This document shows, one piece after another, positions 4,496-61,303 of a DNA stretch of 64,000 nt. Numbering within the stretch: position 1 is the first letter of the stretch; the number at the start of each line of letters is the position of its first letter. Where the stretch lies: NCBI GenBank assembly GCA_001897295.1, contig MKSN01000001.1, positions 516,011 to 580,010 on the forward strand. Direction: 5' to 3'. This DNA is from Candidatus Saccharibacteria bacterium 49-20 (GTDB lineage: Bacteria > Patescibacteriota > Saccharimonadia > Saccharimonadales > Saccharimonadaceae). The notes beneath the pieces were generated by a model. That model made no database searches. It was given only the letters and a program-made list of their open reading frames with translations, and had not been told where the DNA came from. Made by a program: the position numbers and the translations under genes.

Positions 4496-4628
4496 AAGAA
4501 ATCTCAAAGGCAGCCCTGAAACTATAAGGACGACTCTGCAGCCCGAGTTTTTAAGGGCGCTGGGGCCCCATAAAAACCCGGAGCGAAGCCAAGTCCGTTA
4601 GTTTACAGGGGTGAATTTGAGATTTCTT
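4496..4628. repeat. long nested intergenic palindrome E0
   Basis: Arms AAGAAATCTCAAA / TTTGAGATTTCTT; nested CCCTGAAACTATAAGGAC / GTCCGTTAGTTTACAGGG (imperfect) and CCGAGTTTTTA / TAAAAACCCGG. Confidence 0.85.
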
Positions 4629-26676: not shown

Positions 26677-26778
26677 CGCTCATATACTTCCGAAACTTGC
26701 TTCACGCAAAGAGCCCTAAGGGTCTCTACGCCTTAGAGCTCTTTGGTTACGCGAAAGTGTTCTTGAAGTATATGAGCG
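26677..26778 (+). repeat. intergenic long-hairpin element E1 (core on + strand)
   Basis: Outer arms CGCTCATATACTTC / GAAGTATATGAGCG; core CGAAACTTGCTTCACGCA...TAAGGGTCTCTACGCCTTA...TTGGTTACGCGAAAGTGTTCTT. Confidence 0.9.
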
Positions 26779-42603: not shown

Positions 42604-42731
42604 CCAGCAAAGTCTTTTCCATACATACTCACGAAACTTACTTCACGCAATAAACCTTAAGGGTCTCTACGCCTTAAGGTTTTTGGTTACGTGAAAGTGT
42701 TCTTTGAATAGTATGGAAAAGACTTTGCTGG
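42604..42731 (+). repeat. intergenic long-hairpin element E2 (core on + strand)
   Basis: 21-bp perfect arms CCAGCAAAGTCTTTTCCATAC / GTATGGAAAAGACTTTGCTGG; core CGAAACTTACTTCACGCA...TAAGGGTCTCTACGCCTTA...TTGGTTACGTGAAAGTGTTCTT. Confidence 0.92.
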
Positions 42732-46018: not shown

Positions 46019-46139
46019 AGCAAAAGATTCCGCAAGGTCTCAAAGAACACTTTCGCGTAACCAATAAAAATAAGGCGCAGAGGCCCTTATTTTTATATGC
46101 GTGAAGCAAGTTTCGTGAGACCTTGCGGACTCTTTTGCT
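46019..46139 (-). repeat. intergenic long-hairpin element E3 (core on - strand)
   Basis: Arms AGCAAAAGATTCCGCAAGGTCTCA / TGAGACCTTGCGGACTCTTTTGCT (23/24); minus-strand core CGAAACTTGCTTCACGCA...TAAGGGCCTCTGCGCCTTA...TTGGTTACGCGAAAGTGTTCTT. Confidence 0.92.
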
Positions 46140-54070: not shown

Positions 54071-54154
54071 ATTTAAGCATAAACATATTAAAAAGTCAAT
54101 CCCCTACGTTCACCCCCCCTTAATATTGACTTTTTATCAAGCTTATGCTAATGT
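54071..54154. promoter_or_regulatory. pair of near-identical divergent promoters
   Basis: +: TTGACT-17-TAATGT (54126-54154); -: TTGACT-17-TTAAAT (54099-54071); share TTGACTTTTTA..A.G.TTATGCT.AA. Confidence 0.75.
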
Positions 54155-60277: not shown

Positions 60278-61303
60278 TCAAACCACAAAGCGCTCGGCTA
60301 GCGCCTGCTTGATAATCGCAACCTGCAAAAAGACGTCGTTCGCAAACGCATGTGTATCGTCCTTGAGTCGTAGCGCTTTGACCCGCCCCTTCGCCGCATC
60401 GCGATTCAACATATCAAGGCTTGTAGCCATGTGCGCATCGTTTCCAAGCTCACTCTTCCCCGCCCAAGCTACAGACGCAGTCATGTCAGTATGCTTTTGA
60501 AGCGTACGCGTCAAAAGTGGAACAAAATCAACCCGGGCTAGCATAAACCCAATCGCAATATTCACCGGACGCATAATCCCCTGCGAATAATGCACAAACT
60601 TCACCGCATCCTGACGTGCATCCAAAAAAGTCTGCAGCTTCGTGCGATTCACGTACTCACCGAGTGGTTTAAATGTAGCAGTGAAATCTTTTAACAATTG
60701 CTGCGGATAGCGCGGGTGCGCCACCGGGTCTAGTAAAATGAGTCCTTTGGTTTGTGCTGGATTAGCGTAGTATGCAGCGAGTAGCGCCTTTAGCGCACCG
60801 TAAGAGTATCCTACTTGATACGCACCTTCGATGCGCTGCGAGGTGAGGTATTCAAGCTCGACGCCAACCGCGGCTCGAAGTTTTTTCGTAAAAGCCACTC
60901 GCCACCAATCCGCCAACGAAAAGTTCTCTTGCTTGTAGGCAAATGGCTTTCCGCTTGGATTGCCGAACGCAATAATTCGATAGGCCGGGAACGCAAGCGC
61001 CAGCGTCGCCACTTGATACAACTGATTTGGATCAAGCGAATTACCCATTGGCAGATGCACTACCAGCACGCCTTCCTGCGTTTCGCGTGCGTCAACGTCG
61101 ACCAAAGGTACACCCTTCCTTTTTTTGGTAATAAACAAGGTTGGCTCAAGCGGCACGCCAACTTTTTTAAAGAGCGCCTCGTACGTTTCAAACCCCTGCT
61201 GCACCGTCGCCTGCGATGAAACCGCGTCGATCACCTTAGAATCAAATAACCCATACGCCTCAAGCCGCGTACGGGTTATTTTTGAAATAGAATCATTCGG
61301 CAC
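60278..61303 (-). CDS. alpha/beta hydrolase fold protein
   Basis: VLVVHLPMGNS; nucleophile elbow GYSYGA; LILLDPVA; C-terminal DDTHAFAND. Confidence 0.7.
   Translation of the reverse strand: MPNDSISKITRTRLEAYGLFDSKVIDAVSSQATVQQGFETYEALFKKVGVPLEPTLFITKKRKGVPLVDVDARETQEGVLVVHLPMGNSLDPNQLYQVATLALAFPAYRIIAFGNPSGKPFAYKQENFSLADWWRVAFTKKLRAAVGVELEYLTSQRIEGAYQVGYSYGALKALLAAYYANPAQTKGLILLDPVAHPRYPQQLLKDFTATFKPLGEYVNRTKLQTFLDARQDAVKFVHYSQGIMRPVNIAIGFMLARVDFVPLLTRTLQKHTDMTASVAWAGKSELGNDAHMATSLDMLNRDAAKGRVKALRLKDDTHAFANDVFLQVAIIKQALAERFVV

Follow-up and report, generated by a model that had tools for sequence, protein, structure and literature searches.

Long hairpins with a conserved core and locus-specific arms, found in the genome of Candidatus Saccharibacteria bacterium 49-20 (G000) and in its relatives, are best explained overall as non-autonomous selfish palindromic elements, in which a short unit is inserted and the arms around it would be formed by fold-back and template switching. 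We consider this account likely. The window analysed here, a stretch of 64,000 nucleotides, comes from a G000 contig of 904,897 bases. It contains three copies, E1, E2 and E3, whose sequences and coordinates match those in a preliminary description of this DNA. The conserved unit, consisting of core and inner stem, lies at 26691..26764 (+) in E1 (93.4 bits with a covariance model), at 42632..42704 (+) in E2 (84.1 bits) and at 46043..46115 (−) in E3 (81.6 bits); each unit is 73–74 nt long, with an inner stem that varies in sequence by copy and keeps its pairing. The outer arms were recovered independently and, as had been described, are self-complementary at each locus with no sequence in common between loci: 14/14 positions pair in E1 (26677..26690 with 26765..26778, +), 21/21 in E2 (42604..42624 with 42711..42731, +) and 23/24 in E3 (46019..46042 with 46116..46139, −).

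All three folds are well beyond chance (z of −7.8, −10.3 and −7.7 for E1, E2 and E3), and the apical motif occurs 3 times in the window versus 0.03 times expected from shuffles. NCBIfam confirmed greA and lysS as the neighbours of E1. E2 is flanked by prmC and a convergent gene that has no name, and E3 lies between the convergent lepB (signal peptidase I) and a parB-type gene, whose stop codon is abutted by the arm at 46116..46139. Although the three copies listed previously are all present, a fourth had been overlooked. Detected with a model built from 43 copies, it belongs to a divergent subfamily and lies at 4514..4609 (−; 66 bits, E 8e-18), coordinates that include the innermost arm bases; its longer arms reach beyond those limits, with about 26/29 positions paired, and its site is also occupied in the relative G013 (Candidatus Saccharibacteria bacterium 47-87, MKSO01000001). 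Further long hairpins at 54076–54149 and 61244–61281 of the window are unlike the E1–E3 family.

Distribution and pairing of the family

The preliminary description had called for a covariance-model search of related genomes and for a covariation test. The covariance-model search gave more copies: of 397 genomes belonging to this Saccharibacteria family, 66 had matches, spread over 20 of its 61 genera; outside the family, a class-wide sample gave just three weak matches. G000 itself carries 12 copies, and G013, G004 and G010 carry 18, eight and six, respectively. In a 43-copy alignment, 27 of 32 pairs vary on both sides, with far lower values in slid controls, although these counts are biased towards the structure as the alignment was fitted to it. 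In the covariation test, none of 500 shuffles reached the observed values. Covariation demonstrates pairing; it does not separate RNA from DNA. Rfam 15 covariance models, at gathering and relaxed thresholds, matched no family and gave only sub-threshold microRNA matches at the elements, in line with the earlier failure to recognise a known RNA class. Viral contigs searched with the core pattern gave no match, and the open-access literature searched contained nothing on elements of this kind, either for Saccharibacteria or for other bacteria of candidate phyla, which is not proof of their absence.

The copies are unevenly placed along the chromosome. All 12 in G000 lie at 444–775 kb, in one replichore (origin near 795 kb and terminus near 390 kb, from sampled GC skew), and all except one or two of those in G013 lie in the corresponding arm. 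At three loci, L058 (G004), L037 (G270) and L029 (G370), two inverted copies stand no more than about 150 nt apart, in the latter two cases within a single gene. The RNase P RNA gene of G013 has a copy (L052, 149.8 kb) about 45 nt upstream of it, and the imperfect outer arm of this copy extends into promoter-like sequence.

Insertion between and within genes

Comparison with element-free relatives showed the element to be an insertion. In many of them, the prmC and lepB–parB junctions that hold E2 and E3 in G000 nearly abut, with gaps of 0–25 nt, and the same two junctions measure about 130–155 nt in G000 and G013. The element-free junctions of these relatives lack the unit and also any ready-made palindrome. 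A pre-existing terminator as the target was ruled out, because the empty sites are free of palindromes and in many cases have no gap between the genes.

Near-identical units at different sites indicate that the element is apparently mobile. The cores of two pairs of copies (L017/L018 and L117/L121) are 100% identical, and the core of E2 is 97% identical to that of the copy at 453 kb, whose arms are unrelated. Such pairs share only a unit of ~75–90 nt, and outside it stand unrelated palindromes of roughly 22–38 bp at each site; in L017/L018, the identity takes in about 16 nt of inner arm. The mobile unit comprises two conserved internal-loop strands, the inner stem and the conserved apical hairpin, and the arms lie outside it. 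No transposase was linked to the element. A Y1 transposase was rejected as the mover, since most carriers are without one: it is absent from 6 of 8 carrier genomes (G000, G013, G004, G010, G146 and G193).

Seven of the 12 G000 sites are also occupied in G013, which reflects either shared descent or strong hot spots. At five of these seven sites, the core has opposite orientation in the two genomes (strands as read), and partners at shared sites are mostly not mutual closest cores. Several other species carry different long-armed hairpins at lepB–parB, identifying this junction as a hot spot; among hairpins with other cores, we noted L171 at lepB–parB of G008, as well as L147 and L148 at greA–lysS of G001 and G015.

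The family had been described as intergenic, but 22 of the 91 copies examined lie in frame within conserved genes, in open frames of recognisable proteins of nine gene types: mnmA (n=8), topA (n=5, two sites), dnaX (n=2), a methyltransferase gene (n=2, both in one gene), cysS, leuS, dusB and an ABC-F ATPase gene, and a frame in G270 where the copy (L045) lies between RNase HII and YraN parts. This last arrangement, with both parts in one frame around the element, is possibly a gene fusion made by it. Gene names follow NCBIfam where it is cited, and the remaining mnmA, topA and dnaX copies were named by direct sequence similarity. For MnmA, TopA, CysS and ABC-F, NCBIfam matches split or stop at the insert. 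MnmA has 346 residues without the insert (G000) versus 386 with it (G013), and the extra residues come right after ATGHYA; an AlphaFold prediction of insert-bearing MnmA, made from 8 sequences, had a pLDDT of 50 and was uninformative. Coding copies occur in either orientation and use four of the six frames. Selection for one conserved peptide is therefore not at work, and the inserts seem to be simply tolerated. Extra inserts of some 40–70 residues in MnmA, TopA, CysS and others are element-derived, which affects gene models and alignments.

Strand polarity and origin of the arms

Mismatches within the arms are unevenly distributed between the strands. Read on the element strand, A·C mismatches outnumber G·T both outside genes (83 versus 40; by locus 33:10, p 6e-4) and inside genes (40 versus 12; by locus 13:2). 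On the complementary strand, the A·C mismatches become G·T wobbles, and the complement folds more stably in 65 of the 91 copies. An A·C mismatch reported earlier in the core is indeed present, yet it is not an isolated feature, being part of this systematic pattern, which points to the complement as the strand that folds. Because the bias occurs in genes of either orientation, it does not follow the mRNA, and since A·C exceeds G·T on the element strand whichever the gene direction, the complement seems to be the relevant strand. We infer that the complement of the motif-read strand is single-stranded DNA when it folds, or else is the strand on which errors of copying arose; a strand-biased mutation process independent of folding could conceivably still be the source of the A·C excess. 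An explanation by pure Watson–Crick DNA pairing, suggested by the scarcity of G·T, proved wrong, as the wobbles sit on the other strand.

The two flanks of one copy pair better with each other than do flanks taken from different copies, with 40 of 91 copies above the mismatched 99th percentile; L035 and some other copies have almost no arms. The origin of the arms can be read at three sites, cysS, L116 and miaA, the others being too diverged, and at the E1, topA and mnmA sites the ancestral sequence was untraceable. In cysS, one arm has an outer part that encodes DLLD, residues also conserved in G000, where cysS has no insert; the opposite arm is a new inverted copy. At 82 kb in G013 (L116), one arm contains AAAAGTAAAG, which the empty G000 site has at the same place, and the second arm contains the inverted copy of that sequence. 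At miaA, where both G000 and G013 carry the element, the right flank holds a −35-like sequence common to the two genomes; this flank recurs in inverted form as the arm in G013, where the arm has replaced the last miaA codons. The differences around the core had initially been read as compensatory change. Strong covariation bears out the pairing, but for the arms themselves inverted copying of host DNA appears a better explanation than slow, point-by-point compensation.

Polymerase template switching probably both created the locus-specific arms and maintains them. The unit would insert where the host tolerates it, either between genes in any orientation or in frame at permissive spots of essential proteins. 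In the simplest mechanism, the 3′ end of the hairpin would then fold back and be elongated with the neighbouring host strand as template, so that host sequence would be copied in inverted form to the opposite side of the core. Polymerase template switching between the arms could subsequently keep them alike and flip the core. Template switching at inverted repeats is described to homogenise arms and invert the spacer (PMC8604942), which fits the opposite core orientation at five of the seven shared sites.

A second palindromic family has an unrelated core, with two inner hairpins joined by GCGTTSGGCTG, and locus-specific arms of the same kind. It has 11 copies in the genus (L218, L220–L223, L226–L230 and L234) and occupies the lepB–parB junction in G001, G014 and G016. 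Arms of the same kind around a second, unrelated core suggest that arm-building is general in these bacteria and not core-specific. A possible 5′ motif common to families A and B was considered, then dropped because its polarity was inconsistent. It is possible, though we do not lean towards it, that these hairpins represent a new mode of DNA mobility, used by at least two unrelated Saccharibacteria families, in which a single-stranded DNA hairpin inserts and copies the flanking host strand into its arms (inverted target duplication).

Alternative explanations and comparison with known systems

The preliminary description implied a structured RNA. A cis-regulatory or small RNA whose loops are conserved and whose stems covary would account for the strong covariation, the very stable folds and the conservation of the unpaired core. 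We nonetheless consider it quite unlikely, as the element is an insertion that enters coding genes in either orientation and in four frames, is found between convergent, co-directional and divergent genes alike, has no gene context in common and no Rfam match, and shows a wobble pattern that tracks its own orientation and not gene sense. The position of E2 and E3 between convergent genes, together with the length and stability of the hairpins, would also suit a bidirectional terminator, an insulator or a stabiliser of mRNA 3′ ends. Unlike an intrinsic terminator, however, the hairpin is followed by no T-tract in the element sequences, and the copy at 774 kb sits between two ordinary T-tailed hairpins. 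Copies also lie between divergent gene starts (L005 and L018), and most relatives lack the element at the same gene pairs. As the copies within genes, in several frames and orientations, argue against any general terminator or gene-specific regulator, such a role is very unlikely.

Mobility could instead be minor, with ancient arms inherited vertically and their pairing maintained by ordinary compensatory selection. The seven G000 sites also occupied in G013 are consistent with this, and flanks there have diverged enough for arms to drift beyond recognition. This scenario is unlikely when set against cores of 97–100% identity in one genome with unrelated arms, the flipped orientation at five of the seven shared sites, partners there that are mostly not closest cores, and host sequence found inverted into arms. 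Long perfect inverted repeats are also typical products of chimera formation, and an assembly or amplification artefact might therefore be suspected; given a core conserved in 66 genomes, in-frame coding in essential genes and scattered substitutions in the arms, its probability is negligible. Selfish palindromic elements thus remain the reading that we favour.

Several known systems share part of these features. REP/BIME, Correia, RUP and other MITEs are likewise short dispersed palindromes, and they have conserved terminal repeats; in the Saccharibacteria element, by contrast, the outer arms are unrelated between near-identical copies. Activity as folded single strands of defined polarity would be a likeness to IS200/IS605-type elements and to integron attC sites. 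However, Y1 transposases are missing from most carriers, leaving an IS200/IS605 origin without support, and attC sites have conserved boxes whereas the outer ends here are variable. The coding palindromes of nematomorph mitochondria are long, perfect, locus-specific inverted repeats for which template switching or repeat conversion has been proposed (PMC6649704). They resemble the present arms in being near-perfect and locus-specific within coding sequence, but neither a conserved core nor a dispersed element is described for them (PMC6649704). A template-switch process (PMC8604942) would explain why arms are nearly identical, how cores come to be flipped and how host sequence is rewritten; it is a general mutational process described on short repeats, and would here be tied to a dispersed core.

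In its manner of working, the element most likely parallels the Rickettsia palindromic elements (RPE; Ogata et al. 2000, 2002), which are ~100–150 bp long, form several families and occur both between genes and in frame in unrelated genes (PMC10969869). With its arms, the Saccharibacteria unit is likewise palindromic, about 100–150 bp long, present in 12 and 18 copies in G000 and G013, and inserted in frame in unrelated protein-coding genes. We liken it to RPE from these descriptions and do not class it as one, since it shows no single conserved peptide or preferred frame, lies in a different phylum and has outer arms particular to each locus and of probable host origin, whereas the repeats of RPE are described as becoming less alike over time (PMC6649704). 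The locus-specific arms provide a natural experiment on the formation and upkeep of long palindromes, and their sites allow direct testing of inverted target copying. Protein-coding palindromes have so far been described as a Rickettsia peculiarity, and an independent system in Saccharibacteria, which are tiny and depend on a host, would show that even the essential genes of reduced genomes are invaded by selfish hairpins time and again.
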